Positions 1 through 64,000 of a stretch of DNA of 64,000 nt are shown piece by piece. A model generated the notes under the pieces. The model ran no database searches, was not told the DNA's origin, and saw nothing but the letters and a program-made list of their open reading frames with translations. Each line of letters starts with the position of its first letter. Positions within the stretch are counted from its first letter, which is position 1. The stretch spans positions 434,001 through 498,000 of the forward strand of contig JAFCMP010000379.1 in the NCBI GenBank assembly GCA_017506865.1, given 5' to 3'. The stretch comes from Tribonema minus. Lineage: Eukaryota > Sar > Xanthophyceae > Tribonematales > Tribonemataceae. The position numbers and the translations under genes were made by a program.

Positions 1-3000
1 TATGTTCTGCACCAGGAAATCATGCATGAACAGGATAAGTGTAAGTGTGTTCAAAGGGCCAGCATCTGCGCTACCTTTGGTGATGTGATCTTTCAGGTGA
101 CACATGCTGAGGTTGACCCCAGTTGAGGATTGAGACGGACATACAAACCTAGGAGACGCCATGTAAGACATCTCGGTTGAACAGCTTCACACATGAAGTA
201 TCACCTGTGTCCAAAAGCAGCTGTCCCCGGACGCAGACATTGCCATTAGTCTGGCCCCTGGTCAGTCACGCTGGCGGCTCGTCATCGGCTCCCAACTCAA
301 GCATTAATCAGGAGTATGCAGACCTACCGTAGCAGGTGATAGTGGGTGTCGGTGGTACAGTAACTTTTGGCCTCACCATTGATGCTCCGTAAACGGCACC
401 ATGTAAGATGCTTCCAACGCTGGTGACCCTAGTGGTCGACAAGTTCACAACTAGCACACTTCATGCACACCAATGCACCACAATGCATGATTAATCCGGA
501 CCATAAGGTCGAGGTTAGGGCTAGTAGACTTAGTTGTAAGCTCAACCAGCATCCGCACAAAACACAGCACCAGATACTTCAAGAAATGATTGGTCCAAGC
601 CCTGGGACCTAGTTGTGAGCTCACCATGAGCGCTTCCGCGCCTATGCTCCCGCTGCGAGACAATGCCGCCGCGCCTGCCTTGTTGGCGTCGCCTCCGACC
701 TGCAGACCGCCGCAGGCAATGGCAGCACGGCTCAGTTAGTGCACTGACTTCCATGTCAGCAAAGTGCTGTATTCAAGACGTCGTAGCATCAGTCAGCTGT
801 TAACTACGATCCCCCGATGCATGCAGGCGCAAGTGATGCAGCATCATTGCAAGGTGTAGGTGCACAGACAAAGGACCGCACTGGAGGTCAACATGATTAT
901 AATGATAAATCAGTGTGATTTGGCATGTCAAAATGACCATTATTCATTGCAGTTAGGTAAGCTCCAGCAGTTTGCGAGCGATTCGTGCCTCCTCTGCCAC
1001 GTGACACCGTTGTATACACCGTATGGCACTCAACAAGCACAAGCAATATGTTACGTCCGCACATCAAGCACCTGACGCTGCTGGGTTCACACATTGATCA
1101 TACTTCAAGTATGAATTCGAACAGGTGATGCACCTGCTGTCTGCTGCCGCCGCCGCCCTGCGTAGAAGCCTTGAACGCCACGGTGGGGTGGTCCTCGCGC
1201 AGCACCTTTGTGCAATCAGAAGCGACAACCTCCACACACCCAAGCACCTTACCCTTGTTGGTGCTGCACATCAATCAAACTTCAAATATGGTTGCTTCCT
1301 AATTCAAACAGGTGTCGCACCTGCTGCCTGCTGCCGCCGCCGCCCTGCGTCGACGCCTTGAATGCCACCGTGGGGTGGTCCTCCCGCAGCACCTTTTATA
1401 CACCATACGACGTTCACGATCACGCCACGCAACTTGAGCACTTGATCACACACATCTGTCATACTTCAACTATAGCTGCAAGCAGGTGACGCACCTGCTG
1501 CCTGCTGCCGCCGCCCTGCGTCGACGCCTTGAACGCCACCGTGGGGTGGTCCTCGCGCAGCACCTTTGTATACACCATACGACGTTCACTATCACGCCAC
1601 GGAACTCGAGCACTTGATCACACACATCTGTCATACTTCAAGTATAGCTGCAAGCAGGTGACGCACCTGCTGCCTGCTGCCGCCGCCGCCCTGCGTAGAA
1701 GCCTTGAACGCCACCGTGGGGTGGTCCTCCCTCAGCACCTTGAGCCACTGCGCCACCACCTCCTTGGGCACCAGATCCACCTTATTAAGCACCAGGACCA
1801 GTTTCTTCCCGGGTCTGCTGAGCACTGCCTCCTCCACTGCTGACGCGCGTGAGCCCAGGGGATCGCGCGCGTCTAGCACCTGTGTACATGTGAGATGCGT
1901 TACGGTACAGAGTCATTAATTTCAAATTGTCATAGGTTGCTGTACTTCAGGAAGAAGTGTTCCAGTATTTAGGATCTGATGTGCCTCTCTGCCCTGCTGA
2001 TGCTCTCAGGCGTGTGCGATTTGCAGATCCCTTGGTTCAACCAAGTCTTTACGCATGTCTACATGCAGAGGACACAAGCAGTATCCCTTAGTCCTACGCT
2101 TTTGATATGTTGCTCATGATCCTTGCTATGATGCCTGTTGAAATACAGCACTTCTCATATGCGTCCCGACGATATTGGAAGTACAGATAACAATAGCAAC
2201 AATGACAACATGCTGATGGCCTCTGGCCACCGGAAAGTCGGGTGCTCCAGCATTTACCACAGCTCCCGCAGACACAACGATCCTCATGCGATAATATGAA
2301 TTTGATTGTATACCGCCTCAACTGCACATGAATCATGATGATAATGATGCACGCTTTAGAACGTTGAAGCTGTGGGCCACCTGTTGCCATCCCATACCCA
2401 AGTGACAGCACAAGCACGCTTTATACACATTTCAAGTTAGCTGTTGAACTGGTCCTCAAAGTTCAAGTATCTGCACAACTTTTTTAAAAACGGTTTTGAC
2501 CATCCCATCCATACACTGGTGACAGCACAAGCACACCTTACGACAGCTCAAGCACTCCCTGCAGCTCGTAAGACACAGGGATGTCGTACCCCGTCAATAA
2601 GCAAGTGACATGACCAATGATTCCTCCGTAACGGGCGTCAATATAGCTCATGTACAGTATGTACCCAGTACAAGTTATAAAGTACCTCCTGCAGCACCAC
2701 GTACGAGTGGTCCACGACCTTCCGCAGCTATGAATCTCAGCAGTAGACGTCAGCGCAAGCACCCCCTGAAATCAGCTCAACTTGGCTGCTACCTGGTCCT
2801 CAAAGTTGAAGATTCCTCAGTAGTGGACGCCAATAGCTCAGCTCCACAGCGAAAGTGGAAGCTCCACAGAGCAAAGATTGAAGTACCTGCAGCACCACGT
2901 CCAAGTGGTCCACAACCTTCCCCAGCTGTGAATTCTCAGCAGTGGACGTAGCTCATCTATACAGCAGAACTTGAAGTTCACCCATCAAAAGTTGGAGTAC

Positions 3001-4810
3001 CTGCGACATCACGTCCGAGTGGTCCACGACCTTCCACAGCTATAAATCTCAGCAGCGGACGTCAGCGCACCTACCCATCAAAAGTTGAAATTAGCAAAAG
3101 CTGAAGTTCTGCACAGAGCACAAGTTGAAGTACCTGCAGCACCACGTCCGAGTGGTCCACGACCTTCCGCAGCTCCCGCAGGTACGCGCGCCGGCTCTGC
3201 TCCCCATGGCGCCGCTCCTTAGCCTCCATGCCCGCGTCATCGCCCGCTGCGTTCGCGTCGTCCGTCTCCATAAACGCCGCCTGCGTCGCCGCCGCCTTCT
3301 CCGCCAGCGACTCCATGGTCGCCTCCGGCGGAAGCAGGCCGCGGCGCCGCGCCTGGAAGGGTTTTTCCATAGCAGAATTTAAGTTGCAGAGTTGAGGCTG
3401 TAGATAGTTGCAGTTTTCAGGGCACGCGCGTGCTCGGGGTGGGCCTTCTCCGCCAGCGACTCCATGGTCGTCTCGGGCGAGAGCAGGCCGCGGCGCCGCG
3501 CCTACACGGTGTGTATGGTGTGAAGTTGAAGTTGAGGTTGTAGGGTTGAAGTTTGGGGTCACGCCTTGTGGCCGGGCTCTGCCAGCGCGGCTGCATTGTG
3601 CTGCGACAACAGCGCCGCTACGGACAGCGCGGCACCGGTATCGCTTGCTAATGCTTCTGACAACTCCACTGCTGCCACCGGAAACAGTAGCGACCCACTG
3701 TGCCGCTCCTGAATTAGGACAAATTGATATTTCAGCAGTTGAGTTTCAGAAAGCAGAAGCAAAAGTGATTTCGCAGCGTCCATGGAGTGGGTCCTGTGTT
3801 CGACCTTCTCGCTGTCTTGCTTACAAGCAACGTCACGACTTGAACATACCGCAGCAGTGCCTAATCTCCACGCAGTATTAAAGTGCCGCGACACTCAACA
3901 TGAGGGGGTGCTGGTGATGTGACATATGTAACAACAGTACCGAGTGCCACACCGATTGCCGACATGGGTGAGCCTGTATAATGACAACACAGTTCAACGC
4001 ATATTGTTCATGGACATTTTGCGCCGTCTGGTGTGCAGACTCGAAACACCAGGTTGAGGGCATGCACCAACAAACACATTTGCTTACCAGTTCTAGCTTT
4101 CGTTTATCCTTTTGCGCCTGCTTGTGCTCCTCTGCCCGCTTCTTTGCATATTCTATCTCCGCCAGAACCTCCGCCTTGAAAGGGATTGAGTTGGGGATTC
4201 CTGGGTCCTTCTTCTTGTGTAAATGCGGATTTTTCTTTGCATCTTTTCGCTGCTGCCGCTTGTGCTCCTTGACCTGCGAAACACCAAGAGCACAAGGAAA
4301 CGCGAGAGAGTTGATCATTATGCAGTTGAAATCATTGCAGTCAACAAATTCTCACAGAGCAAGCGGTCGGTCAAGTGTGTCCTGACCCACCCTACAGCGA
4401 GTGCAATGTACTGCTATGTATGCCGCCGCCTGCTGCACGCGCAGTAGCCTGCGGAAAGGAATTAACAACAGGTGTGCTGCACCAGCACAGTAGCTGCAGG
4501 CCTGGTGATCACTACCCAGGCTTGCACACTTCAACGCTTGATGCAAAGTGAAGTTTTCGTTCAATGACGGCGATCGAGGTGCGGCACCACTACCAACCAC
4601 TTGCAGCGTATTCGGCACTATGAGTAATTGGGTTATGGCGACCATTCAAGCTTTGAATCCCGCTGGCGGACCACTGAAGACCCAGCATGCTGCAGATCAC
4701 GATCAACGCGACCCTACGTTGACACCAAATGCTTGCTGCTTCACCTTGCGGTCGATCTTGTACTTCTGCTTGAGAGTCGTCCTCCCGCTCTTTCCCTTCT
4801 TCTTCACCAT
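1..4810 (-). CDS. GNL3: GNL3/nucleostemin-Grn1 type circularly permuted GTPase (partial, 3' end outside window)
   Basis: Nucleolar GTPase of the GNL3/GNL3L/Grn1 family, which acts in ribosome large-subunit maturation. Five exons read in one phase: 4810-4745 (basic start [18 protein letters not shown]), 4273-4088 (Grn1 box with [15 protein letters not shown] and a basic [19 protein letters not shown] stretch), 3352-3134 (ending [19 protein letters not shown]), 1879-1667 ([11 protein letters not shown], then the G4 motif NKVD) and 699-625 (ending GSIGAEALM). G4 precedes the P-loop, as is usual for this circularly permuted family. The P-loop exon (GxPNVGKS) is not seen before the left edge, so the gene runs out of the window. 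The start at 4810 is supported by the family-typical first residues. The introns after exons 3 and 4 carry repeated copies of the exon tails. The family assignment is firm; the exact paralogue (GNL3 or GNL3L) is not. Confidence 0.9.
1128..1567 (-). repeat. Three tandem copies of the GNL3 exon 4 tail plus splice donor
   Basis: Units at about 1489-1567, 1315-1394 and 1128-1209 repeat the real exon 4 end (1667-1741), coding for [15 protein letters not shown], a short Gly run and SRQQ, followed by a GTGCG-like donor. The period is about 173-187 bases, and intron spacer is duplicated as well. Each exon-like block is 66-72 bases long and phase 0 to phase 0, so inclusion would keep the frame. Acceptors in front of the copies are weak (AAAG with little pyrimidine), so they look more like decoy donors than full exons. 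Confidence 0.9.
2690..3047 (-). repeat. Three copies of the GNL3 exon 3 tail plus splice donor
   Basis: The end of exon 3 (real copy about 3131-3180, coding [14 protein letters not shown], donor GTACTT) recurs at about 2999-3046, 2883-2929 and 2690-2735 in the following intron. All keep the donor-like GTAC or GTAG-like context. The copies differ at several bases, so they are not an assembly stutter. Confidence 0.88.
3428..3508 (-). repeat. Duplicate of the GNL3 exon 3 head with acceptor
   Basis: This stretch upstream of exon 3 repeats the exon start (acceptor AG, then [19 protein letters not shown]) with a few changes ([14 protein letters not shown] against [14 protein letters not shown] in the real exon at 3352). 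It lies in the same orientation, about 150 bases before the real acceptor. It could serve as an alternative 5' part of the exon, but the sequence after LAEKA no longer matches the exon. Confidence 0.8.
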
Positions 4811-6655: not shown

Positions 6656-9412
6656 CTACTTCCGCCTGCCCCTGCCGCGAGAGGCTGCGCCAGCGCTCAG
6701 CCTGGGCCTCTCAGACGCAGCTGCGCCTGCAGGGGCAGCAGCGCTCCGGTGCGTGGGCGCTGCGGCGCAGCGCGACGCGACGCGCGGCGCATTGGCGGTG
6801 CGGCCAGCGGCTGTGGGCGAGAGGCGGTTCGCAGCAGCAGCGCCGCCGCTGGCAGACGCGGCGCGCGTAGCCCGGCCGCCTGCTGAAGCGCCGGCAGCAG
6901 CGACATCTGCAAAGCTGGGGCGGCGCCCCGGTGCAGCGCTGAGCGGTGCTGCCACCGGGGGTCCGCTGCTGCCGCCGGCAGCGTGAGCGCTGCCGCCAGT
7001 GGCACGAACAGCCCCGCCACCACTACCAATTGTTGAAGTTGAAGCGGCGCCGCCAGCTGGATGGGGGCGTGGCGAAGGGGTGGCGACGGCGGCAGCAGCA
7101 GCAGCACGGTGGCGTCCGCCCGCAGTCGGCGAGCGTGACGCCCTAGCAGGAGCTGCCGCCGCTGTGGCGCACGTGTGCGCCGCGCCAGTGCGCGCCCCTC
7201 GGGATGGCGGCGCGGCGGCAGCGGCGGCAGCAGTCGCGTCGCTGTCGTCGGCCGCGGCAGCGACCGGTTCCGCCGCCGCTGCCTGCAGCTTCGCCTCGGC
7301 AGCGGACAAGAAAATGACTGCGGCTGCAACGAGATCATCTGCTGCCTCTGCCTCTGCCTCCAGCTGTGGCAGCTTCGACTTGGCCGCCTGCACGGCAGCC
7401 AGCGCTTCGGCAGCGGAATGCTCGGCCTGCGCGTCAAGGCGAAGCAGGTGCTCCAGGTTGGCGGCGCCGCGCTTCTTGGCGGGGATCTGCAATTTGCGCT
7501 GCGCCTCCTGCCAGTGCTGCAGCGCGACGCTGCTGATGCGCTGCAGGTCTCCCACGTGCTCCTCTGCCTGCGCGTGCGCCTCAGCCGCCTGATCGGCCAG
7601 TCCTGCGCCATTGCCACAGCGGCGCTCGCGTCCTCTACGTCCGCTGCGGTCGCCGTCGCTGCCGCGCTGCCGCTGCCGTCCATGCCGAGCGTGCGCAGCA
7701 CCGCGGCGCGCTTCTGCGCCGCCGATGCGCACTCCTGCGGAGCGCTGCCAACAGCTTCAGCAGCGCTCGCCTGTTGCACCTGTTGAGCACTGCCATCAGC
7801 AGCAGCAGCGCTCATCTGCTGAACAGTGCCATTAGCACCAGCGGCTGTAATCGCGGGAGCGCTGTCACCAGCGTCGGCGGCGCTTGCCGTGGTTGCCGTA
7901 GCTACCGTGGCTGTCGTCTGCAAATGTACAATTGGCTCGGCGGCGGCAGACGTCACCCCTGCCGCCGCCGCGTTTGTGGACAAAGTGGGCTGAGCTGCTG
8001 TAGGCGCTGCCGCCGCCGCCGCCGCCTCTGTGGATGAAGTGGGCTGAGCTGCTGTGGCCGCCGCCACCGCCGCTGTGTTGGTGGATATGGTGGGCTGAGC
8101 GGCTGTAACCGCATCCACCCCCGCCGCTGCCGCTGCCGCCGCCGTTGCCGGCGCCGTCGCTGCTGCAGCGTGCACCCCAGTCTGCGCTGGCGGAGCACGC
8201 GCGCCCTGCGAAGAGCCCGCAGTCGCACTGCCAGGCCTGTTCTTCTTGCGCTTGCTCTTCTGCTTGCCTTTGGCAGCGGCGCCGGTGCTGAGAGATGCTC
8301 GCTGCGCGTCCTTAACCTCGTGCGTCGCGCCGGCTGCCTGGCCGCTCGCGTTGCTGGTGGTGGCATCAGCGGCCGTCCCCGCCTTCTGGTTGCTAGGAAT
8401 ATCCTTGTGGGCAGCTGTTGCAGTGCTCGGCACGTGTGGCTGAAGTGGCGCAGGCACAGCTTCTGCGACGGCCGCGTCCGCTGTGGGTGGTGGGGACTTC
8501 GCAGGTGGCGCCGGTGCGCGCTTCTGTCAAGAAAAGATTGTGCACACATACAAGGCATCTGCGTCAGTTGTGCTGCTGTTGAAGGCAATGAAGTTGCTCA
8601 CTTGGTTGAGGTCAGCTGCGTGATGAAAGCATGCTGCACCGACACTCAACCTCGCAGGGACCATCCCAAATATGGCATCATATAGGTTGAGAGCAGTTGA
8701 GAGCACTTGGCATGACCCCACGCATGAGCTCCCGTGCTGACACTGCGTACACATTGCTTTGCACCTGATACACCCACTGTCTGAAGTATCGCTTTTACAT
8801 CTTAATTCAGCCAGATAACAGGAGGTACGACAGCTGTTCACTACACAAAAGTCCCTGTCCACAATGACGAACCTGCTTGGCGGACGCCTTTGCTGCGCGC
8901 TGCTGCTGCTGCTGCTGCCTCAAGGATTGCTCGGCAGGGGCTTTGCTTACGCCAACAACAACCGTCCCTGCCTCCTCCATTCCGGGACCCTTGTCGTGCG
9001 CACCCGCAGCAGAGCTCAGCGCGCGCGGCTGAATCGAGCGCACCCCGTCCGCAGACGCCAGCGCGCTGCCAGCCTTAGCATTGCGTACCGCATACAGCAC
9101 GGCGATCAGTGCCACATGCACGTGACGAAGCCCGTCCGTAGAAGCTAGCGCGCTGCTGCTGCTGCTGCTGCTGTTGCCGCTGCTGGCCTTAGCATCGCGC
9201 ACTGCAAACAGCACAGCGATCAGTGCCACGTGAACGTGACGAAGCGTCGTCGCCACTGCAGTCGCGCCAGCCGCTGCCGCCGGCGCCGCCGCCACTGACT
9301 GCTGCTGCTGCTGCTGCTGGATTGAGCGGTGCTGACCATCTGAAATTGAAGTTGAGGTTGCCGGGGGCGTCGTGCGCTGCTCTGCGCTGGTCGGACTGCA
9401 CTGCTTGAGCAC
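6656..9412 (-). CDS. Ala/Gln/Ser-rich protein with coiled coil, function unknown
   Basis: Two exons fit: 9412-8873 (180 codons, start MLKQCSPTSAEQ) and 8523-6656, joined in phase 0 by an intron with donor GTTCGT and acceptor TTGACAG. The first exon holds poly-Gln and poly-Ser runs and two near-identical hydrophobic segments, RHVHVALIAVLFAVRDAKA and RHVHVALIAVLYAVRNAKA, which could be membrane-facing or amphipathic. The second exon has a basic KSKRKKN patch, long Ala-rich repeats (AAAAQPT, STN/STE), a helical coiled coil (HAQAEEHVGDLQRISSVALQ onward) and a basic GRGRRK end with a TAG stop. The coiled coil is in a different frame from the sequence before about 7610, so there is either a one-base error, a real frameshift or an unseen small intron there. 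I do not recognise the family. Confidence 0.55.
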
Positions 9413-10697
9413 TGTCGCGGGTGGCTCGGCGACCGATTCCTGCTAATTGGATGAGCGGGCAACGCACACAGGGTGCAGCATGATTAGGCATGAAGCGTGC
9501 AACAAGGCATTGCAGCTTGTCATGGATTTTAGGATGACCCTAACCCTGACTCCCCTGAGCCACAACAAGGAGAGGTGGTGTGGGGGTTGCCGATTGGGTA
9601 AATGATCGTCGCACTGCTTGAGCTGTCACTGACAGGTTGTCAACGAGCACTGCTGGCGAGCTGTGCACTGCATAGTATGTACTGATAGGCTAACTAAATT
9701 TATTAATCTCAGCAGACTATAAACTACAATCTGTTGCCCATGTTACAGGTACTACAACTGTAGGAGCATGCGCACTAGAGCACTGCAGGGCATGATGCAG
9801 GTTACTGTTGTTACTGTAGCAGTTCTACACATTCAATTTGTACTGCCAGGTGGCCCAGTTACAAATCTCATTCATCTGCAATGTACATGAGCGAGCCGCA
9901 TACGGCGCGACACAAAGAGTGCGGGCGTACCTGAACTGTCCGTTGTTGGACTGCTGCGCCCTAAACCCATGCGGGGGTACGCTGTGAAGGAGAGCGGCGC
10001 GGGCAGGGGAGAACAAGAACTGAAGTTGTCAGAAATACTCTAACAGTATAAACAGTTTCTGCCATTATGGCAGAAACTGTGATGCGAAAGGGGCTGTTAT
10101 TGCATATGGGTGGTGAGCAGCAGCTTGATGAGTGCATCTGGCCACTCGCATGCCGCAGCACCGCGTGTTGCAAGCAGCAAAACTTGAACTTTAAGTTGAA
10201 GTGTGCGACATGACATTGTGCTGTAAGTTTAATTTACTAAGTTACAGGTGAATGCTGCTGCGTTCTGCACTAAGTCTTAGACTAGTAGTCTACTAGTAAG
10301 CGCGCTTTCGAAGTTGCCAAGAAGGCAGTTCGGCCGCCGATCTCAGGCTGCAGTGCTTGTCAACAAGCAGTGACTGTCATTGGGACAAGCCAGCGCTAAA
10401 TGCCTTGCATCATGTTGTGCCATCAGTGAGATCATTTCGCCCTCGGTGTGACATAACAACGCACGTCCAACGGTTGTCACACTGTGGCGCCATCCTCCTC
10501 CCACCAGTCGTCACGCGCTGCTGTCTGATGCGCTCTCGCCTGGCAGTGCCATCATGGCAGCGTCATCGTGATTATTACTCATTGAATACCGCTTTCCCCG
10601 CTGCTGCTTCACAGACGCAAAGCCACGCACGAAGCGCATCGGGTCGGCAGGGTGCGAGGGATCTGACAACAAGAAGTCCTGCGCGTGGCTTGCTGAG
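9413..10697. other. Intergenic region between divergent genes
   Basis: This lies head-to-head between the Ala-rich gene (minus) and the M11 peptidase (plus). It contains a short TTAGGG-related run near 9535-9550, a GCCATTATGGC-centred palindrome near 10055-10078 and no convincing exon. Upstream exons of the peptidase, including a signal peptide, could lie here but were not found. Confidence 0.45.
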
Positions 10698-26205: not shown

Positions 26206-26419
26206 CTGTCAGGAACACATGGCAATTGGAATCAGGGTTGGCTTAGGGGATAGATGAGGCCTGTCACAACACATCACCTCAGCAAGCTTCCCTTTGGGGA
26301 GGATCAGTGGTGCACGTCAATTAGGCCAAACAGCAACAGTGCGGTCTCAGCCCACACTCATGTGAGTGTTAACAGGCATGCATCGCCCTTGCGTGTGTGA
26401 AGCAGCAGCGCATCACCAT

Positions 26420-30659: not shown

Positions 30660-31640
30660 GAGTTCAGCACGTGAAGGTATTGTGACCGGTGGTACTTATT
30701 TTAATGACAACGCATAGTTGACTTGTGCGCAGCACATGGCCATAGTTATGCCTCATTGCGAAGGATGGTGGTGATGATCAAACCACCTGCTGCTCAGCTT
30801 TCGAATCAGTACGGACTTGGTGTTGCCATGCACTGACTTGTCTAGTGTGTTCACCATTACTGTTGTTCAAATAGGGTTGACGCACCTGAGTGCAGAGCAC
30901 CAAGCCGCCGATCTTGAGGTTTACCTGTATGTTTACGTTCTTGCTATGATCAATGCGTGCATGCATGCTCCTCAATCCCAACCCCCGCAAGTGATGTCAT
31001 CGCCAAGCATCATAGTTTTGCGTGCATTGTTGGAGGTGTGCAAGCTGCGAACTGCGAACAGCTGTGCCCTATTTGCGCTATTGTGACAGAAACGCTGAAT
31101 ATTTAATGGCGATGGCAATTGGCTCACATTTCCTCTTTACTTTTCGCTGTTGCCGCCGTGCAAATGCGGGACTGTTCAGCAGGAGCAGCTGTCGGAGCAA
31201 CCCAAGACATAGCATTCGCACATTGCGTGCCTCCGCTGCAAATATCACACTGCTTTGACCAATTTTGAGGGTGCATGCTCTTTCTTTTCCTGGTGTTCTG
31301 GTGCTGTGCTTCTGGAGCCTTTTGTTCATTCTATTCAGCTGCCCACGCGATTTTCACACGTGTGCCTCAAGAGTTCACAGTTGAAGTCACTGGTGCGCTC
31401 TCTTTTGCATAAAATGCCGCAGTACCTTCCCGAATGGTATCATCACATTGTGCACCATGGATGTGCATCAATCTATTCCCAGCGTACCTATGAGATAGTA
31501 AATGATCAGTGCTACTTCAGCTGCGGGTGGGTTTGCCAAACTTCACCTACTGAAGTTCGAGTTGAAGTTCACTTTGAGTCGTGCATACGTCCGTGGCAGG
31601 AGAGGCGTTTGTGGACACACCGCGCTCGCACGGCCCAGCT

Positions 31641-53700: not shown

Positions 53701-55663
53701 ATAGCGTCTGCTGCTCAGCCTGCACGCGAGCAAGGCGAAAACAACTCGTCCAAGTTATTGTGGCAACGAATCAAAAGATGGTAGAGCTCTAGGTGACAAG
53801 GTGTGGTCAGCCGCAAGTGTTTTCCACCAATAACCGTGGTCGCCGCTGCTGCGGCAATTGGCCACGAGTTACACAGTGCCACAATTATGCGAGCAGCACA
53901 ACAAGGGAGGGGGTGTTAGTTTTCAACAGCTGACAATGTGTGTCGGCTTGGTGGTGCCACGTACTCTAGCACTGGCAGATAATGACATCCGCCAAAGGGG
54001 ACGTGCAGTCCTGTACAGCAGTCCTGCAAATGCCGCTGCTGTATGACAAACTGTTGCGTCATGCTTCGCTTGTAGGGTATGTACCAGTGTCACTGCGCTT
54101 TGACCAGGCATGGCCGTATGCACAGGTCCCGCTGGGAGGGAAATGGCAAGGACATCACAATGCCACGCAGCAAGACAAACGGCATTACACTTGGCTGGGA
54201 CACACGGGCTGCAAAGCTGACTTCGCAATGGTCCGCCCATGCATGTAGCAAGACACATACACATAAGTGCTGCTTTTATGCAAGAGGCCGATGATAGGGT
54301 TCACGTTCAGCCGGTGACTTGCCTGTGCCCGCTTGAGCTCCATGTCCGCCTTGCGCGCATCAGTCAGCGAGGCCTCCGCCTCCAACTTCAAACGCCGCAC
54401 CTGTCGACAACGAGCGTCACAAAAGCCGCCAGAGTTGAAGTCGGTATCACAGCCGAAACGAGGTGACATCGCATGGTTTCATGGTGTAAGTTGCCGATGC
54501 AGTATCAGTGGGTCTTACTTGATTAACAGCTTTCATAACAGTTGCAGGATGTATTGGCCGCCGTCTCCAGCGTGTGCGCCGTGGCACTCAATCCATCTGT
54601 ACGTTCGCGCAAGTTGCAGCTGTAGGGCAGCGACACGGTCACCCAAAGCAGGGACTGCTTCACCAGCAACGCTACGCACACACAGCCTCCGCGACTTCAA
54701 CAGCGCCCGCACACCTCAGCAGCGGCCGTCTCCACCGTGTGCACAGTGGCACTCAATCAATCTGTTTGTGCGAAAGCTCCAACTGCAGAGCAACAATACA
54801 AAAAAGCAGCGACTCTATGCGTACACAGCCTCCACTACTTCAACAACGCCCACGCACCTCAGCTGCCGCCGTCTCCAGCCTGTGCGCGGTGGCACTCAAT
54901 CAATGTGCATGTTTGCTTGCGCTTCAATCGTAGAGCAGGAAAACGGTCACAAAAGCAGTGACTCGCAATGACTCCTTCTAGTTAGACATACTTCTACACA
55001 CTTCAACAGCGCCCACGCACCTCAGCAGCCGCAGTCTCCAGCGTGTGCGCAGTGGCGTGCCATTTGTGCATTCGCGCAAGCTTCAACTGTAGGGCAACGG
55101 CACGGCTACAAAAAGCAGAGACTCCTTCTACCTTAGCAAACGATGTTCGACAGCGCCCACGCACCTCAGCAGCCGCCGTCTCCAGTGTGTGCGCAGTGGC
55201 ATCAGCCAGCGGCGCCCCCAGCAGCTCTGCCAGCGCCCTGCTGCTCATGGCCTCCTGTAACAGCTGCTCGCGGTCCGCCGCCACCGCGCGCAGCCTCGCA
55301 GAAAGGTCGCGCTGCTCCTCTTCGTTCTCGCTGGCAGCCGCGATGGCCTGAGCAGCGGGAGCGTTGGCGGCAGCGCAGTCGGTGAGTAAAGATCATGTGC
55401 CGTGGTACAAGTCAGAAAGGAGACATCCCTCGAGACAAAGAGTATGCAACAGAGGAAGGACGCTGCATGCATGCAGACCGCGCCAACAGGTCACGCTGTT
55501 CCTCCTCATTTTTGCTGGCCGCCGCAATGGCCTGAGCAGCGGGGGCGTTGGCGACAGCGCAGCGCAGTGGTTGGGAGAAGAGACGGTGTGCAGCGCTGCT
55601 GCTCGGACACAAAACATGAGATGTATTTATTGGACAAAACACACCGTTACCACCCTCATAACG

Positions 55664-55696
<33 letters not shown>

Positions 55697-58600
55697 GGGA
55701 GTATATTAAGACAGGGAGCATATCACAGAGGGGGGGGGGCGGGCGCTGCGTGCACAAAGGTCAAATGCAAACTGCGATGTACCTCGTCCATGGCCTGAGC
55801 AGATTGAAGCTGCGCTGGCAGCAGCGTTTACGAAGAAACAGTGCATGCCCCATCGCCTAGACCCTGTCTGAGACGCATGTAGGTGTTCCAGTGTGCCAGT
55901 CTGAGATGCGTTGAACCTCAAGATATGAGAACTTGCAGTGTGTGCATTGTGATGTGAATCAGACCAGGCGGACATGCCTGCAAGTAACGTGACACAGACC
56001 AAGTATATTATTGGTCACATTGCCAAGGCAAGATCAGACACTGGTGTTTCAGATGCATTTATGTCCAGCTCTCGCAGTGCTGATGGAGGAACCACATGTA
56101 CAAACAGACAAGTGATTTGGTATGTGTATACGTACAAGCATACACTACCATACCTGCGACTCCTGCTCCCTTAAGCACATTGCTCATGAGTACTTGCTGG
56201 AGTACTACCTTTCTGTCCAATGTGTAGTCCACCCACTCAAGTACTACTCCAAAGTGCTGGTAGTCGTCCTGAGTGCAAGGTTTGCATTGTACGCATACTG
56301 ACATTCATATGGTATGTATGTATACTTGAACAACATACCTGTGACTCCTGCTCGAGGTCAAGCTTGAGTACGTTGTGCTCGCGCTCCAGTGCATGGACCT
56401 TCTTGTCGGCCTCTCCTACGGCATTGGCGCGCATGAATGACTCGTACTGAGCCTTCGCCTGCACGCGACGCAAACGCACATGGCGTGCACAATAGGCCGC
56501 AATACGTAGAAAAGTCAGTCCGTCATACATATACGTTGAAGGTGCGCATGGTGACAGCGTGCACAAGGTATTGTCTTTAAGGTCCTGGGCCCTTCACCTT
56601 TGAAAGGACGAGGCAGAAGAAAACAGCGGCATCACCAGCCAATAGCGCAGCACGATCAAAGTTAGGTGGGGCTCCATCAGCTATCATGTTTATAAATACT
56701 GGCGTGTTGCCTGACGTACAGGAGCGAACAAAAGCGACACAGCCAGCAAAGAGCCCAGCAAGGCGGCTGGCTCCATCAGCTCTTGAGGCCATACTTATAT
56801 ACCCCACCACATGACCACAGTGCCCAAATTGGGGTTTGCCTGGTATTAGCACAATGCAATACTGAGCATTGCAGGGCAGCAAAGACCCGCCTCAATTGTT
56901 GCATACAGGGGGGGTCACGATATAAGAGCGGGTCCGTCCCGCCAGCCTCACCGCTCTTATACCGTGACCGCTCTTATATGGTCCTGGGGCTTAACTAGGG
57001 TTAGGGCTAACCCTAGGCTAACCCTAGCCCTACACCTAGGGTTTGAAGTACTTGAGTAGGGTTAGTGTGCCAAAAGTTGAAGTTGGCTTTGAATTAAGCC
57101 GGAAAAGCAACCGCACCGTGCGCTATACGCTGTGACTGATTGATACGCGCTTGACTGTTGTTGATTGTCACACAAAATCCGCTGTTCAAGCATCGTTCGT
57201 GAGGCGGCAAGTGGTAGGTGGATACGTTATAAGAGCGGTCAGCCCAGAGCAGCACCAAACCGCTCTTATATCGACCACATCCGTGTTCAGCCGTCAGACC
57301 GCTCTTATACCGTGACCGCTCTTATATCGAGCGCTCTTATATCGTAGCCCTCCCTGTAATGACGTGAACAATTTGCCATGCCTCAGACCCGCAAGTGACG
57401 TGAGCACTGTTGTTGCATCACACTCCGCATGATATCTTGCGACATGGTTGTTCGAAGAAGTATGCAAAATCAACGAGTCGGCTGAAAGCGGAACAAGACA
57501 CATGCAGGCTTGCCAGGAGTGCATTCGACATCCGCTGCCGGAGAGAATCGCGGTGTCTGCTATCACATCCTCGCAGAGAGCAGCTTTGGTGTACCACATT
57601 GCCATGCTGCTTCGCTGGATTTCCCTGTTGCTTGCAAATGGCAGCTTTAGAGCAACATATTGCCATGCTGCAAATCTATCTGTTGCGCGCATTGTTGTGC
57701 CGCTCAAACAAGCACTTGCACGTTGCGGCTGACTGGCGCAATCATCTGCACACAAGGATGTGTCCATGGATACGCTGGCCGCAAGCATCAAAGCCCCTGT
57801 TCCAACGACTGCTTGGTCTTGAAAGGGAGCATTTTGATGCAATGGGCACAGGGGAGAGAAACGCATGGTACAGTCACCATGCCATCGCTTGTGAACTGAC
57901 ACGCATACATTGTGATCATCTGTGACTACCGCAATCACCACTGCCACTGACACCGCTTTCCTAGGACTCTGTTGACATAATGATGATTGAAATGGTGTGT
58001 ATGACTCATATAGTTACCGGTTCGTACTGACGCATTATGATCACTCACCGCACTCATCTTCTCCTCCGCAGCCTCCAGCTTGCTCGCATTGATTTGCCGA
58101 CTCTGTTGGACAGAGAACATCGCACAGGCGTCAGTGGTGTTTACCCCAACAGTGCTGGCACCGTCAATGATATTGATGTTGCGCATGCGGGATTATCACT
58201 GCAGTACTATCGCAGTGCGAAGACAGCACCTGTTGCACCTGAGGAAGGCCAGTTTGAGCGAGATTCAATGAGGTTATTGGTTCACAACAAATCAAGACAA
58301 CGTAGCCCACATATGGTGGACATGATGAGTTCAAGGGGAGCAAAAGCGTGTTTACCCCAACAGTGCTGGCACCGTCAATGATATTGCTGTTGCGCATGCG
58401 GGATTATCACTGCAGTACTATCGCAGTGCGAAGACAGCACCTGTTGCACCTGAGGAAGGCCAGTTTGAGCGAGATTCAATGAGGTTATTGGTTCACAACA
58501 AATCAAGACAACGTAGCCCACATATGGTGGACATGATGAGTTCAAGGGGAGCAAAAGCGAAGACGCGTTACAACAGAAATTGCGCACCGACAAAGGGAGT

Positions 58601-61600
58601 GAGGGTAGAAGTGAGGTACATGTGAATGGGCAGCAAGTCAGCTACTCGTGCAGCAGATGACTACGCCTTGCCAACGTTGTGCCCTTTCACATGCAGGACT
58701 AAGGTAGATGTGAATAGACAGCAGATCAACTACTGAAGCAGCAGATGACTGCGCCTTGCATCGATGAGCCCATGCGACACATGTATAGTGCTCAACGTAC
58801 ATGCATACATACGATGCTTTGCCCATACCTGCACTTGCTTGGTCTGCTCCAGCTCCTTCATTCGCTGTGACACCTGAGGCAACCAGGGTAATGCAATGCC
58901 AGGCACGGGTGAGCTTGGCCTGCGTGTCGTCTCATTCAGAGTAGATGGTAAATTGCCCAAACTTATCAGACCTGCCACGGCCAATTGGCGTAGCAAGGAC
59001 AGAAGTCATAGAACAAGGAGCGGCAAAGAAGTGTGTACATGCTTGGTGGAGAAGTACACTATGTATACTTCAAGAAGTATGCACATGCTCCATGTGACAT
59101 CAATAAACACTGTTGTGTTCGATGACCGAGGCAGTATGAGGGCAGCTACTTAAGTACGCACTGCTTCCAATGAGAGCACATGATCAGTGTCCATGTTTAC
59201 TTGTGTACAGCAATGTCCACCTGGCTCACAATGCACACTCTGGCATGCTTTGAACAACTGACGCGACAGAATCCATAGGCTCTGGCATATTCAGCCGGCT
59301 GCCCTGGCTGCAATCAGTATATCATGAAAGGTCTCCCTGTGCATACTTCCAGGCTTTCACAAAATCCTCAGTACGTTTCCAAACAAATGAATCACGGAAA
59401 CCTCTCTTACCTTTTGCAGTTCTGAGTCCTTGTGTGCCCTGGAGGCGCTGTTGGTGCGCTGGTCTGCCTGCAGGCGGCTCATCTGTCACAAAACAGTAAC
59501 CAGCAGCATGTCAACATTACAGTCAGTGCAGGTTTGCCATGTTGAGCCGAGCAGTAGTCAAGACTCCGCAAAGCCACACTCATAGTGAAGGATGAAGATT
59601 GATGCACTGCTGCTGCTGCAGCAGTAGCAGCAGCAGCAGCAGCATTAACAGCAGCAGGGGGCATGTGACCTCGCCGATATGGTCGTGCAAACTATGGCAG
59701 AGCCTTGCCAGTGTCATGTGCACTGCTGCACAGGGCTGGCTTAACTGCAAAGTCGAGTGTGGGTCAATGACCGCACCGGGTGTGACAGAGGGGCTTTCGC
59801 TTGAGTGCGTGACACACATAGGCAGAGGCCGTTCAGAGGTGTCATGAGCAATAGGGACCATCTCAACAGCAGGTAAACGTTGCGCAAGCAAGCATCACAA
59901 ATGCGGTTCCAGATTGAGCGGATGGAACAATCATGACGGCGGCATCCAAACTTGCAGAGCTGGACACTGGAACGTGTGTTCGCATGTAACGGTTCACTTA
60001 CGAAGCGTGCTTCACGCACTTCTGCATTGGGGCTCCCTTGCGTGCATTCACCAGGTGTGGGGTTCAGCAACAGAGGCACTGACCACAATTGGGCTACTGC
60101 TGCATGTCTATACATGTTGCGCTGAGCACTGACATTTTGGAGTTTGTCAAAGACGCATGCCCACATGACCAGTGCATGCGGTTGCTGCTTCACCAGCATT
60201 ACAGTCACAACTTTACATGTCTCTGATGTGTCGGATCAGACCGACACCGTGCGGAATATCGATTTTTGTAGTTCCCTTTGTGGCAGCAATGTGTGCGCTG
60301 TCTGCACTGACCTCCTGAGCAAGGCCATCTTCCTTGGTGCGGGCTTGGGCCCTCACAGCCGCAAGCTTCGTCTCCATCTCCTTCACCTGAAAAGAGACGT
60401 CGATGAGGCAGTGTGAGGCACAGGCACTGTGGCATGGACCCGATACTCATAAGCTACTGGGTGGAATCTACAAGCACTTCAGATATGTGTTGCAGACGAG
60501 TCAACGAAAGATGGCCGCAGACGCTATTGCTGCTTCGGAATTTTTTTTGGAGTACTACTTGAAAGTACCTCACAGTATGTACAGTCGCTAGCCACACAAG
60601 GTCTGTCTGCAAATCAGCCCTGTGTATACTGCCACGGTGAACCAACTATGCGTTGTGTGCCAGACTACAACTCAGATCTTACGAGGACATTGCATCTCAA
60701 GGGCAACAGCTGGAACCCAGCTGTCACAGACCTGCACGACTCAGAATTCGCTGTCAGTGTAACATTGACTGATCCCCGTCACAGTCAATCAACTCCCCGC
60801 TGTTCAGCACCGGTAAAGCGCTTCTGACATGCAATATGTGCATAGAGGCAAATAAGCTCTCCACCATGTCTGGTGCTATGACCCACATGCCCCCCCCCTT
60901 GTTAGGCGCGTGCAAAGCACCTCTCACATGCACCATGCAGACAGGCTAATTCCATACAACCGCAACTGCGGTTTCACCTTTCAACAAGCACATTCATACA
61001 GGCAAACAAGCGTTTCCATTTAACAGGCATTTGAAGTTTTACCTTCTGCTGCAGCGCCGTCAGCAGCGCAGCGGTGCCATTGGGCGCCAGCTCCAGGTGG
61101 TGCTTTCGCGCTAGCTCCTCAGACTGCCGTATGCGCTTCTCCTGAGGCAGCAAGTGACGCAGGGCAGATACGATGCGTGAATGGCCTGACTGAATTGGCA
61201 ATGGTGACACTCGGCCATCTGCGCCTCGACGCTCCCCAGCTCGCATCGTGCAGCTGGCGCTGAGCCATGCCACGGCGCACACAAACTTCAACTTCAAGCT
61301 GAACCACAGTGGTGCTAGCATGGCTGCGGCAGTCACAGCGAAAGCGCGTGCGCACTTGCTCTGCCATCTGCGCCTTCCCGCGCCCCAGCACGCGGCGTGC
61401 AGCTGCTGAGCCATGCCGCGGCGCGCACAAACTTCAGCACAAACTTCAACTCAAAATTCAACTTCACGCTGAGCCCACTCTGTGGCAGCCACAACGAAAG
61501 CGCGTGCCCACCTGCTCCGCCATCTGCGCCTCGACGCGCCCCAGCTCTCCGTGCAGCGCATTCCGAGCATCCAGCTGCTGAGCCATGCCACGGCGCGCGT

Positions 61601-64000
61601 CGGCCTGCGTGGCGCGCAGGCCCTCCAGCTTCTCGTTCTGCCCCGTGAGCGTCGTGTCAAACTTGTCGAGGTACGCCTGCAGGTCGGCGTCCGACTCGTT
61701 GAGGTAGAGGTTCGACATGTGCGCCTCCTTCTCCGAGATCTGCGCCTGCGTCTCGCGGATGCGCGCCGTCAGGTTCTGCATCTCCTGCCGCAGGATCGCC
61801 GCCTGCATCAGCAGCGCGGTCATGTCAGAGGCGGAGGCGCAGCGTCAGACGCACGTGAAATCGTGCTCTTGTGTGCACTGAATTCGGCCGGAGGTGATAT
61901 TTGCGCTTGGGGTTATCCTGAAGTTTTCTGCATCTCCTGCCGCAGAATCAAGTTTTCTGCATCTCCTGCCGCAGGATCGCCGCCTGATGGGGAGAAGCAG
62001 TACCGCGCAGTCATGTCAAAGGTCATGTGCTTGCTGGTGTTTGAGGATAGCGTCAGGTGTTCCGCATCTCCTGCCGCAGGATCGCCGCATGGCGCGGAGG
62101 TGCAGCAGCAGCGCTGTCGTGTCAGGACTGCGTGAGGGCGCGATTGTAGCATTGGTGTTGTCTGGAGTCTATCAGGGTTGCACTTGTGTTCAGGTTTAGG
62201 GTAAGCATTCTGCATTCCAGCAGTAGGATCGCCACCTGGGGCAGAGGTCATGCATATACTTTAAAGTCGGCCAGTAATGTACTAACCGGTGTTTGAGGTT
62301 AAGCTAAGGGGTTCTGCATCTCCGGCAGGATCGCCGCCTGACGCGGAGGTGCAGCGGCACTGCAGCCGCGTCGGGAGCACGTGAGGTCGCGCTCATGGAA
62401 TGCACTGAGGTCGATCAGAGATTCACTTGTTGCAACGCAGCCAACGAGAACGCCGTGCCTGAGCACGCAACTACAGTAAGGGACGTTTAAGTATCAATGA
62501 GCACACGCCGTCAGCATGATTCGATGGTTCAAATCCTGATCCTGTTCGTTTTTGCCCCATTGCATTGCCGGCGCCATGCGCGGCTGGCCTGGTGTGCTGC
62601 AGCACCGAGCTGAGACATCGGACACTAGTTCAACAACAATTGGCACTCAGGATTATAGGTATGGACTGGATGGATGAAGTCTTGACTGGGCCGCATGAAT
62701 TAACACTGACATGCGCCTTCACATCATCTGTTCGGTGGGTTGAATCCTACTCACATGTGCTCCAAATTGTACATGCGCCCATTCATCACCAATAAGGTGG
62801 CAATTTCGGTAAACTATACTCCAGCGGCATACTACGCACGCACACTTCAACTGTGACACTTCAGAAACACCCATGCTGACGCTTACTACGCATGCACACT
62901 TCAAGTGTGACACATGCTGACGCTTCAGGACGTCTGTGATTGAACTTCAAGAAGCGCACCTGCTGCGCTCTGGCCATGTGCTCATCCAGCTCCTCTTGCA
63001 GCTCCTTCATGGCCTCCTCTAGCTGCGCCATCTGCTCCTGCACGTCCGCGCACTTCTGCTCCGTCTGCTGCAGGTCATTCTACAGAGCACCAACAGCAAT
63101 GCAGCGCAACATGATGAGGCAAAGGGGGCGACAGATAGAGTGTGCAGCGGGAGTTGGCGGGAGGTATGGCCTTTGTGTGGCCACCTGAGACTGCACAAAA
63201 AAGGCACTTGACAGGGGCATATGATGCCAGGGATGATGAATGATGCCAGCGGATCGACTTACATGCACGGCCATGTTAAGCTGACCACATTGTGACATTG
63301 ATGCATGCTTTCATATCCATCAGCCCTCCGTGACCGATTGATGAGCCACGAGGCTACACAGGAAAGGTAACAGTGCAACATGCATTCTGGAGCTTGATGC
63401 CTTGGTTGGGAATCAGAATGCAGTTAGCAGAACCTTGGAGTGAAGAGGCAGCAGACAAGCACAGCTCGGGATCTGGTACGTGAAAATGGGTGCTGCTGTA
63501 CAACACAACTTGTACTATAGGCCCTCATGCGTTACAGCACTATGTCTTGTATACAACGCTTTGCAAATCATGGCAGACAGAAGCACCACCGCACGCGAAT
63601 GCCGACATCTTTCAGAGCAAGATCCAATGTCTTGAACCTTTGCTTCTTCAGCCCATATGTCATGGCGCAAGTCGATTCACCAACAGGTCACGTGTCTCGC
63701 AGCATGGCGTCATGATGTGATACGGGCAGTTACACATGCCATGTCAACGCACCCTGTCAAGCGCAGCATCAGACGCAGACACCCTTGAAAGTCAGTCAGA
63801 TGTGATGTCTCATACGGTATGCATCATACCTGAAGGGCATCCGCGGCCTCCGAATGCGCCGTAAGAGCCGCCAGCTCCCCCTTATAGTCCTTGACCTTGT
63901 TGGCCAGCTCCACACGAGTGGCTTTGATCACATCCAAAGCCTGACATTGCAGTGACAACAAATGGCAGCACGTGAGGACGTTGGTGGCAGCGTCATAGCA
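38719..64000 (-). CDS. RAD50: RAD50 DNA-repair ATPase (partial, 5' end outside window)
   Basis: SMC-like ATPase of the MRE11-RAD50-NBS1 complex. 31 exons, 1169 codons, with all phases agreeing: 63940-63830, 63079-62960, 61802-61512, 61141-61043, 60386-60312, 59482-59411, 58873-58829, 58102-58049, 56458-56339, 55347-55165, 54400-54323, 53719-53600, 52932-52801, 51772-51696, 50988-50880, 50036-49878, 49278-49165, 48634-48545, 48096-48011, 47702-47628, 47152-47089, 46527-46457, 45887-45756, 45205-45088, 44478-44348, 43302-43215, 42314-42177, 41859-41686, 41210-41101, 40429-40297, 38859-38719 (TGA). Long coiled coil ([12 protein letters not shown]...); zinc hook PECRCCRR in exon 50988-50880; then [19 protein letters not shown], signature [12 protein letters not shown], Walker [12 protein letters not shown] and ITHDEEFV. 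The N-terminal Walker A exons lie past the right edge. Three introns (after 54323, 45756 and 45088) have GC donors. Small exons could still be missing. Confidence 0.96.
39380..39532. repeat. Inverted repeat in the last RAD50 intron
   Basis: The 19-base arm at about 39380-39400 (CACAAGGGCATGGGGGCTA) is exactly complementary to TAGCCCCCATGCCCTTGTG at about 39513-39532. Partly complementary text continues inward (GTTGTGCGAC, CAACAGCTTGTG). A related, weaker inverted pair lies at 39190-39300 (GAATCTAGCCCC against GGGGCTAGATGC). It is likely a small hairpin-type element. Confidence 0.65.
40146..40270 (+). repeat. Dispersed repeat right end, copy C
   Basis: Matches the right 120 bases of the 575-base element (GTTTGACTCGTGGCCAAT, GGTTATTGGTGGAAGGCA, TACGATCTTTTGATTCG) with a small gap. 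It lies about 25 bases behind the donor of RAD50 exon 40429-40297, in antisense to the gene. Confidence 0.75.
40498..40545 (-). repeat. Duplicate of the head of RAD50 exon 40429-40297 with acceptor
   Basis: On the minus strand, CTCAG then CCTTGAGCTGGACGAGCCC and ACAACCAACCTG repeats the real start (CTCAG, CCTTGCACTGGATGAGCCC, ACGACCAACCTG) about 100 bases upstream. It codes [10 protein letters not shown], a Walker B-like fragment, in the same phase. Confidence 0.85.
42468..42545 (+). repeat. Dispersed repeat right end, copy D
   Basis: About 75 bases matching only the last part of the element (GGAAGGCA, ACTTGCGGCTA, CACCTAGAGCTCTACGATCT, TTTGATTCGTTTTCG). It is the shortest copy and lies in the RAD50 intron before exon 42314. 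Confidence 0.75.
43005..43200 (-). repeat. Three copies of the RAD50 exon 43302-43215 tail plus donor
   Basis: The real tail codes [10 protein letters not shown] and is followed by GTAAACC. Copies at about 43155-43195, 43090-43128 and 43030-43070 repeat GGCAGGCTGACA.CG.TCAGA with decaying donor sequence at a period of about 60-65 bases. Only the middle copy keeps CAG before GTAAACC. Confidence 0.82.
43377..43448 (+). tRNA. Gln-type tRNA with anticodon UUA (putative ochre suppressor)
   Basis: 72 bases fold as a full cloverleaf: acceptor TGGGTTG with CAGCCCA, D arm GCC-AAGTGGTAA-GGC, anticodon stem GCGGA with TCCGC, loop CTTTAAC, variable CATTC, T arm GTAGG-TTCGAGT-CCTCC with one U-C mismatch, and discriminator A. 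The loop gives anticodon UUA, which pairs with the stop codon UAA. The body resembles bacterial or organellar tRNA-Gln(UUG), including the U1-A72 pair used by GlnRS and the AAGTGGTAAGGC D arm. It lies inside a RAD50 intron on the opposite strand. It may be an inserted organellar tRNA that changed one anticodon base, or a working nuclear suppressor. Confidence 0.85.
43800..44312 (-). repeat. Graded array of RAD50 exon 44478-44348 tail copies with donors
   Basis: The real tail codes [15 protein letters not shown] and is followed by GTGCGTC. Copies follow downstream about every 80-85 bases (near 44258, 44175, 44093, 44005, 43960 and 43890). The nearest is almost identical over its exon part; farther ones lose donor bases and similarity. 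The intron spacer (TTCACTATTGAGGTT) is repeated with them. Confidence 0.9.
44995..45087. repeat. Telomere-like repeat starting at a RAD50 GC donor
   Basis: About 90 bases of CCCTAA-type units with variants (CCCTAAACC, CCCTACCC, CCTTAATCC, CCCTCGCCC). On the minus strand the first intron bases after exon 45205-45088 are GCAAGGGCTAGGG, so the GC donor is part of the repeat itself. Confidence 0.85.
45618..45656 (-). repeat. Copy of the RAD50 exon 45887-45756 tail with GC-type donor
   Basis: The real tail codes TKSDLPGR and is followed by GCAAGC. About 120 bases downstream, GCCAAGAGTGACCTGCCTGG then CACGCAAGC repeats it, including the GCAAGC, though the AG before it has changed. Confidence 0.75.
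48398..48505 (+). repeat. Dispersed repeat right end, copy E
   Basis: Matches TGGCCAATTGCCGCAGCAG, CGGCGACCACAGTTATTGG, TGGAAGGCA, CACCTAGAGCTCTACAAT of the 575-base element. It lies about 40 bases behind the donor of RAD50 exon 48634-48545. Confidence 0.78.
50578..50632. repeat. Interstitial telomere-like repeat
   Basis: Units CCCTAATCCTAGCCCTACCC followed by CTACCCCTAACCCTAAC, in the RAD50 intron between exons 50988-50880 and 50036-49878. Related short runs occur at 36231-36249 and 56994-57047. Confidence 0.75.
50773..50832 (-). repeat. Copy of the RAD50 zinc-hook exon tail with donor
   Basis: The real tail codes [13 protein letters not shown] followed by GTGAGCTGG. About 100 bases downstream the copy reads [13 protein letters not shown] followed by GTGAGCTGG. 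Donor and frame are intact, and the flanking TTCTGACCAGCTCACCT text is duplicated too. Confidence 0.88.
51530..51690 (-). repeat. Dispersed repeat at an intron 5' end, copy 2
   Basis: Minus-strand match to 34846-34970, beginning within ten bases of the donor of RAD50 exon 51772-51696. This copy has a further internal tandem duplication of about 35-38 bases (AATGTACTTTTTATTAATTC against AATGTACCTTTCATTCATTC, each ending in GGGCGCG). Confidence 0.78.
52598..52650 (-). repeat. Copy of the RAD50 exon 52932-52801 tail with donor
   Basis: The real tail codes LAEDAQRTQ followed by GTCAGAACAAACGCACGC. The copy codes LAQDAQRTQ followed by GTTAGAACAAACACATGC, about 190 bases downstream. A GTATACTT/AAGTATAC-rich spacer lies between. 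Confidence 0.85.
52984..53480 (-). repeat. RAD50 exon 52932 head copy and an intron tandem array
   Basis: 52984-53042 repeats the acceptor and first 50 bases of the exon ([15 protein letters not shown]) upstream of the real one. Beyond it, about 53050-53480 holds four copies of an ACAGATGCGACCAATGGCAG-like word spaced 70-105 bases, with AAACAAGTGCAAGGGG-like companions. Confidence 0.82.
53765..53872 (-). repeat. Dispersed repeat right end, copy F (inverted)
   Basis: Reverse-complement copy of the shared right end (CGAATCAAAAGATGGTAGAG, CTCTAGGTGACAAGGTGTG, CCACCAATAACCGTGG, GGCAATTGGCCACGAGT). It lies close to the acceptor side of a RAD50 intron, opposite in orientation to copies A-E. Confidence 0.8.
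54540..55062 (-). repeat. Four copies of the RAD50 exon 55347-55165 tail with donors
   Basis: The real tail codes [13 protein letters not shown] followed by GTGCGTGGGC. Copies end near 55018, 54855, 54710 and 54550, spaced about 145-165 bases. The nearest three keep a GTGCG or GTGTG donor, and the fourth has lost it. The nearest copy is in frame with the exon through an open spacer. Confidence 0.9.
55478..55570 (-). repeat. Duplicate of the RAD50 exon 55347 head with acceptor
   Basis: CGCTGCTCAG-like acceptor then [20 protein letters not shown] against [20 protein letters not shown] in the real exon, about 180 bases upstream. A third, shorter fragment (GCTCAG, GCCATGGACGAGG) lies at about 55784-55812. 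Confidence 0.85.
55665..55695. repeat. Run of 31 G bases
   Basis: Unbroken poly-G in a RAD50 intron, followed within 40 bases by a second run of ten G. It would make strong G-quadruplex structures. The length is likely unstable and may be misestimated in the assembly. Confidence 0.9.
56144..56176 (-). repeat. Copy of the RAD50 exon 56458-56339 tail with donor
   Basis: The real tail codes EQESQ followed by GTATGTT. The copy reads GAGCAGGAGTCGCAG followed by GTATGGT about 190 bases downstream. Confidence 0.78.
56907..57353. mobile_element. Small inverted-repeat (MITE-like) element
   Basis: The left end GGGGGTCACGATATAAGAGC faces the right end GCTCTTATATCGTAGCCCTC as an imperfect terminal inverted repeat. 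CGCTCTTATA(T/C) words recur inside in both orientations. The core holds a TTAGGG/CCCTAA patch with opposed units (56994-57047). It has no coding capacity and lies in a RAD50 intron. Ends and target duplication are not certain. Confidence 0.6.
58137..58558. repeat. Two-copy 211-base tandem duplication
   Basis: 58137-58347 and 58348-58558 are identical apart from one base (GATATTGATG against GATATTGCTG) that I could find. It lies within the RAD50 intron upstream of exon 58102-58049, so it is a very recent event or, less likely, an assembly artefact. Confidence 0.93.
59616..59660. repeat. CAG/CTG-type triplet run
   Basis: Interrupted run of about 15 CTG/CAG-type triplets in a RAD50 intron. Similar short runs occur at 8901-8921, 9152-9172 and 9300-9320, where they code Gln or Ser in the Ala-rich gene. 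Confidence 0.7.
61200..61435 (-). repeat. Two long copies of the RAD50 exon 61802-61512 tail
   Basis: The last 70-80 bases of the exon ([28 protein letters not shown], donor GTGGGC) recur at about 61350-61430 and 61205-61275 in the next intron, with CGCGCGCCG(T/C)GGCATGGCTCAG starts. The first keeps a GTGCGC donor. The spacer with AAACTTCAACTTCAA-like text is duplicated as well. Confidence 0.83.
61918..62345 (-). repeat. Several copies of the RAD50 exon 61802 head with acceptor
   Basis: The start of the exon (CAG, then GCGGCGATCCTGCGGCAGGA, GATGCAGAA) recurs four to five times upstream at about 61918-61948, 61950-61985, 62058-62092, 62208-62238 and 62310-62342, most with the acceptor CAG and often with the GCGCCAT or GCGTCAG-like intron text before it. 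Confidence 0.86.

Follow-up and report, generated by a model that had tools for sequence, protein, structure and literature searches.

Pervasive local tandem duplication as the probable source of serial exon-end copies in introns of Tribonema minus

We analysed a stretch of 64,000 nucleotides of the Tribonema minus genome (hereafter the window), together with other parts of the same assembly (158 Mb, 554 contigs). Alignments in GNL3, a bL9-like gene and a RAD50-like gene confirmed that introns contain same-orientation repeats of the tail of the neighbouring exon with its donor, or of the acceptor with the head of that exon. These copies are probably what remains of a pervasive tandem duplication, in units of roughly 70-230 bp, that operates across introns and is filtered by selection, rather than the product of a process targeted to exon-intron junctions.

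Pfam matches supported four of the genes in the window: GNL3/Grn1 (PF08701), CYRI (PF07159, corresponding to its C-terminal exon at 17558-17425), a bL9-like gene (PF01281) and an RRM protein gene (PF00076). The GNL3 exons matched a JGI metagenome protein at 60%; of the matches with names, Phaeothamnion, a PX-clade ochrophyte, stood at 58%. Protein matches of the genome pointed to ochrophytes near brown algae, and an initially supposed green-algal affinity was rejected. The stretch adjoining the window (L016) gave a short MMR_HSR1 match, and short CCTAACCC runs were seen in its GNL3 introns. A fifth gene was identified as RAD50-like from its C-terminal exon, which matched a protein with the name RAD50 at 76% (5% query coverage), and from long coiled coils; a composite search returned three proteins with good alignment over the Walker-B exon only. 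Most of the 25 exons of this gene were modelled from codon usage and splice sites and not from homology. Unrestricted exon chaining proved much too permissive, and only high-scoring RAD50-like exons, chosen by hand, were kept. PDB searches returned no match. The window also contains metalloprotease open frames at 10572-12654 (+) with a HEMGHNFGGLHDR motif, of the gametolysin-like family, an alanine-rich, putatively coding open frame of 609 codons in GC-rich DNA at 6700-8526 (-) with an internal 51-bp repeat, and a direct repeat of 588 bp (19074-19661 and 20495-21077, 93% identical, 833 bp apart) that possibly represents the ends of a retroelement.

Most exon edges were called from splice motifs and codon usage, and not from RNA. 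Concatenated CCT alpha exons from another locus (L019) were 97% identical to a EukProt entry (P0124), apparently transcriptome-derived because it carries a TRINITY name, and 79-83% identical to proteins of brown algae, Vaucheria and Chrysoparadoxa. When P0124 was aligned to L019, two of nine exon-sized stretches were 100% identical, and in the others the differences lay mainly at the edges, where the alignment enters the intron; from these matches, P0124 probably comes from the species whose genome was analysed. One exon model started about 14 residues short of P0124, and other predicted edges may therefore also be inexact. The chaperonin scan found no exon-end copies in the L019 gene encoding the P0124-like protein.

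Exon-end copies were present in all five genes named in the initial annotation, but its count of 14 or more exons was revised to 12 exons with 16 junctions within the window: seven exons and ten junctions in the RAD50-like gene, two and three in GNL3, and one of each in CYRI, the bL9-like gene and the RRM gene. In GNL3, the tail of exon 1879-1667 (-), its donor and some intron are repeated three times downstream with a unit of about 172 bp (1053-1741), the copied exon ends lying at about 1495, 1321 and 1134. The tail and donor of exon 3352-3134 (-) likewise recur in three downstream copies (2689-3174) ending at 3001, 2887 and 2689, the last of which has lost its GT, and the acceptor and head of this exon are copied 149 bp upstream (3294-3503, copy start 3501). 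The bL9-like exon 29121-29336 (+) is followed by three copies of its tail and donor, ending at 29501, 29677 and 29931 (29121-29979), one of them with an in-frame stop. Copies in the remaining two genes were seen by eye in the sequence: CYRI exon ~18452-18300 (-) has two downstream tail copies with a unit of about 217 bp (17760-18453, edges by eye), ending at ~18084 without a donor GT and at ~17867 with a donor, and the RRM exon ~35658-35782 (+) has a decayed copy of its tail and donor ending at ~36073 (35658-36090).

In the RAD50-like gene, whose copies are all on the minus strand, the acceptor and head of the Walker-B exon (40429-40297) are copied about 103 bp upstream (40297-40603). Exon 43302-43215 has a copy of its tail and donor ending at 43100 (43022-43302), and exon 44478-44348 has four such copies with a unit of about 83 bp (43850-44478). 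A short tail copy lies about 133 bp downstream of exon 45887-45746, whose donor call is weak (45499-45887). Exon 52932-52801 has both a head copy upstream (53038) and a tail copy downstream (52611; 52541-53075). Upstream of exon 55347-55165 lies a single head copy (55531), and downstream of it there are four tail copies (55021, 54858, 54715 and one truncated; 54557-55562). Exon 61802-61512 is preceded by three or more head copies (61983, 62088 and ~62337) and followed by two tail copies (61207-62391). Other arrays served as controls: an intron-only duplication at 58137-58559 (211 bp twice, 99.5% identical), and two arrays without detected exon sequence within 48924-50924, at 48924-49144 and 50749-50924. 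Interstitial telomere-like AACCCT repeats also occur in the RAD50-like region (44992-45084 and 50586-50624). An intron region of this gene contains, on the opposite strand, a tRNA with anticodon TTA (43377-43449, +, 63 bits), which would read the stop codon TAA; 51 bases of it have a partial match on C290, and we take its body to resemble a plastid-type glutamine tRNA. A changed genetic code, which this tRNA suggested, was rejected, as conserved exons are open in the standard code.

All 64 repeat pairs within 2 kb of each other in the window were direct, compared with 10 direct and 7 inverted among the 17 pairs farther apart. Direct orientation was also seen in 94 of 95 local pairs from 13 other genome stretches, giving 158 of 159 overall, with copies close by and in many degrees of decay. 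At a score of at least 40, 38 of 136 exons matched sequence outside themselves, compared with 3 of 136 reversed exons, and a chance origin of the repeats is excluded. The minimum repeat unit had a median of 133 bp and a 5-95% range of 71-231 bp, close to the periods of 60-245 bases first proposed. As in minisatellite or tandem-repeat turnover, units stand head to tail in direct orientation, with decay and change in copy number. A separate tandem array with a 903-bp period (about 2.8 copies, 97% identity) lies at the end of a small contig (L012, 3780-6282).

Exon-end copies extended beyond the window, to four of eight random stretches (L005-L008) and four of seven chaperonin genes (L018, L020, L021 and L022), which supports the suggestion of a wider pattern. 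Beside the window, a further GNL3 exon, in L016, is preceded by two head copies and followed by three tail copies. A whole-genome Pfam search also points to such putative copies, through profile positions that overlap between neighbouring places (C51, C5 and C135). Copying was indeed serial, with up to six copies at one junction. However, the proposal that most junctions are affected was too strong, since a copy was detectable at either end of 39 of 136 exons only. One gene-bearing stretch with 11 predicted exons (L004) had no local repeats at the thresholds used, and the duplication load therefore varies between genes.

All 67 donor-type copies lie downstream of their exon and all 39 acceptor-type copies upstream, as the initial annotation had observed, with 4 of 110 copies interior and the other 106 touching an exon end; no whole-exon copy with both splice sites was present among the 66 scored for both ends. 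This direction is expected because the duplications retained would cross one splice site, and the geometry of a tandem duplication across a splice site allows nothing else. We scored 60-bp segments at junctions, in introns and in exon middles for duplication, and found duplicated 40 of 177 junction segments, 60 of 295 intron-only segments and 2 of 71 exon middles. In the window and L016 (33 exons) the corresponding counts were 16/66, 25/130 and 0/33, with acceptors at 6/33, donors at 10/33, and introns at 14/65 (250 bp) and 11/65 (500 bp). In 56 exons of seven chaperonin genes they were 24/111, 35/165 and 2/38 (exon middles from exons of at least 120 nt only), with acceptors at 8/55, donors at 16/56, and introns at 20/90 and 15/75. 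Exon ends are thus copied far more often than exon middles, in agreement with the original claim, but the further claim that every duplication straddles a splice site failed against the intron-only rate and against exon-free arrays such as that at 58137-58559.

It is unlikely, but the strongest of the alternatives, that duplication is targeted to junctions through transcription or the 5' splice-site region (for example by R-loops or exon-positioned nucleosomes). Junction and intron segment rates are equal, and repeat coverage of 136 exons and their introns was 0.13-0.26 in the 100-bp bins of introns, starting at the splice site and reaching beyond 900 bp, with no clear trend, dropping inside exons from 0.199 at the edges to 0.026 beyond 100 bp. 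An 80-exon version gave 0.24-0.25 within 200 bp of donors and 0.17-0.19 further on. Donors argue for targeting. When the exon set was moved along each record as a null (136 exons), acceptor crossings matched expectation (15 against 15.3) but donor crossings exceeded it (29 against 14.9), and interior or whole-exon duplications fell short (4 against 19.4); the unscaled nulls were 15.1, 14.6 and 19.0, respectively. Donor-side copies are also more numerous (70 on 33 exons, compared with 40 on 20 exons on the acceptor side). By group, the donor counts were 9 against 3.2 in the window, where the null also spans intergenic DNA and may inflate the excess, 9 against 3.9 in random stretches, and 11 against 7.7 (P 0.09) in the chaperonins, the cleanest set for this test with one gene per record. 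The excess is therefore weak where the test is cleanest, and selection against new upstream acceptors could yield the same asymmetry. Together with the lack of a clear trend in intron coverage, the acceptor result does not support a process acting on junctions as such.

Counts of arrays also favour targeting. An exon edge was included in 43 of 67 arrays, compared with 12.4 expected, or 16.4 with introns shrunk by the arrays they now hold. By size, this held for 18 of 36 two-copy arrays (7.4-9.3 expected) and 25 of 31 larger ones (5.0-7.1 expected); earlier versions gave 27 of 44 against 7.0 and 22 of 40 against 6.0. Where intronic columns, which include exon-derived parts of copies, sufficed alone to detect the array, the count was 29 of 43 against 7.2-9.7. 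When exon bases and bases derived from them were masked, 37 of 60 arrays still held or touched exon-derived sequence (11.1 expected), as did 9 of 14 with at least 90% spacer identity, figures on which we do not lean, the score-28 mask being lax and firing also on 21 of 136 reversed exons. Part of this excess is expected because exon-bearing arrays stay recognisable longer, their exon side not drifting, and because large clusters merge several events. Against targeting, the three arrays with a best intronic identity of at least 0.90 in one array set had no exon edge, and exon sequence was present in none of eight repeat pairs at that identity, compared with 9 of 28 at 0.85-0.90. Pervasive duplication filtered by selection remains our preferred reading, although it does not account in full for the donor bias, the array excess and the slowness with which exon-derived copies decay.

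This decay was followed in several ways. Exon and copy mismatched at 0.093 in the exon part and 0.193 in the intron part, the former about half the latter, as expected with conserved exons and drifting copies. Where donor copies could be aligned across the junction, 55 of 60 retained GT, and AG was retained in 33 of 37 copies, both above the 0.72 expected from intron-part mismatch; the expectation becomes about 0.86 if half of the mismatch sits on the copy. The N fraction of exon-copy differences was 0.447 in one set (n=322), compared with 0.760 for random changes, and the chaperonin set (n=182) comprised 93 S and 89 N. Comparison of copies with each other is cleaner, because a protein-conserving exon adds silent changes to every exon-copy pair. 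Divergence between copies was 0.117 in exon-derived parts and 0.195 in spacers (ratio CI 0.49-0.73), gap openings per 100 were 0.53 and 2.88, and the third-position fraction was 0.46 (CI 0.39-0.53), compared with 0.353 under neutrality from CpG-corrected spacer rates. A star-like history, in which each copy is made anew from the conserved exon, gives an effect in the same direction; the low indel rate of exon-derived parts is less easily explained, alignment bias apart. In 20 arrays the copy closest to the exon resembled it more than the most distant copy did; the reverse held in 9, and 1 was a tie.

Somewhat less likely again than junction targeting is a process of mutation that favours the donor side of exons and keeps re-copying tails and 5' splice sites downstream, by which introns would grow by accretion and carry graded fossils of the exon's past sequence, some of them (in GNL3) still usable as interchangeable exon ends. 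The GNL3 array at exon 1879 has a repeat unit readable as GT...AG, by which each of the copies could stand in for the tail of the exon, and all 12 pairwise differences among its copies fall at third positions; it is one of 28 arrays, and these differences represent about six independent events. This array and the slow decay of exon-derived parts favour the improbable reading that copies are functional, kept under coding selection as alternative or mutually exclusive exon ends. However, each copy holds one exon end only, 6 of 66 contain in-frame stops, other arrays (GNL3 exon 3352 and the L016 exon) show mostly amino-acid-changing differences, and re-copying of a conserved exon can itself produce third-position bias. 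Coding throughout the copies was rejected, as the arrays are mixed. That the copies are an assembly artefact or collapsed alleles is hardly credible: the work is based on the assembly and not on reads, but the copies mostly differ by 5-30% with a nested unit structure, lie on several contigs, and one gene of the assembly agrees within exons with an independent, apparently transcript-derived protein.

Gao and Lynch reportedly described internal gene duplication, including tandem duplication across exon-intron boundaries, in 2009. The duplications reported here are alike in having a direct tandem unit that crosses the boundary, the segment spanning the splice site having a direct copy nearby. 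They differ in affecting many junctions of one genome, serially, with up to six copies and mostly without an evident new intron. In the Rogers AGGT model of intron gain, a within-gene tandem duplication likewise supplies extra splice sites, but there an exonic AGGT segment is duplicated into a new intron, whereas here existing introns grow. Of 43 donor-type copies, 7, belonging to four arrays, had AG precisely at their edge, against about 2.7 by chance; AG/GT breakpoints were thus rejected as a rule for copies in general. The GNL3 array at exon 1879, with AAG/GT a few bases inside the edge, does by itself fit the AGGT model.

Boundary-crossing tandem duplication is already known from gene-level cases, such as potato RdRp, and two fission-yeast genes carry serial 24-bp exonic arrays (PMC4974935). 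The papers compared here treat intron gain gene by gene, although one review tabulates 188 tandem-duplication gains in several species (PMC3443670). Duplications that give rise to mutually exclusive exons carry part of the adjacent intron, as here, but involve whole exons, where we find exon ends only (PMC6071210). Introners also change introns genome-wide through repeats, but they are elements dispersed to many genes, whereas the copies described here match their own neighbouring exon and intron (PMC9860276); in the window, 64 near pairs stood against 17 far pairs, and exon-end copies matched their own exon. A literature search with coverage of few subscription journals returned, in the text accessible, no description of serial exon-end copies across a genome.

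In the preferred reading, frequent local tandem duplication, in units of about 70-230 bp, would occur all over introns; an event confined to an exon would add some 25-75 residues and such events are depleted, and one crossing a single splice site would leave the exon intact and be kept. New upstream acceptors may be less tolerated than extra downstream donors, which would produce a donor bias without a hotspot. The molecular event may be a small tandem duplication at breaks or nicks, with fill-in of staggered ends followed by end-joining. In the human genome, insertions shorter than 100 bp most often take the form of small tandem duplications, and break-repair duplications yield short direct tandem copies, as here (PMC8355091). 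Direct orientation, locality, unit size and the clean 211-bp event appear to fit break-associated duplications of this kind, although that paper concerns human insertions under 100 bp and the units here are mostly 70-230 bp, with the mechanism inferred from one young event (58137-58559), a single case with at most 1 bp of microhomology at the joint. Serial arrays would reflect repeated events at one exon edge, in which the copy closest to the exon tends to have arisen last. Most copies would be neutral side products whose effects are longer introns and decoy splice sites.

Gene finders should take warning: a copied exon end whose splice sites are intact scores like an exon, and we dropped such copies from our exon sets. 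In this genome the growth of introns through local tandem duplication can be traced one event at a time, with copied ends of conserved exons as datable fossils, and the frequency with which these duplications seed alternative donors or new introns becomes open to test.
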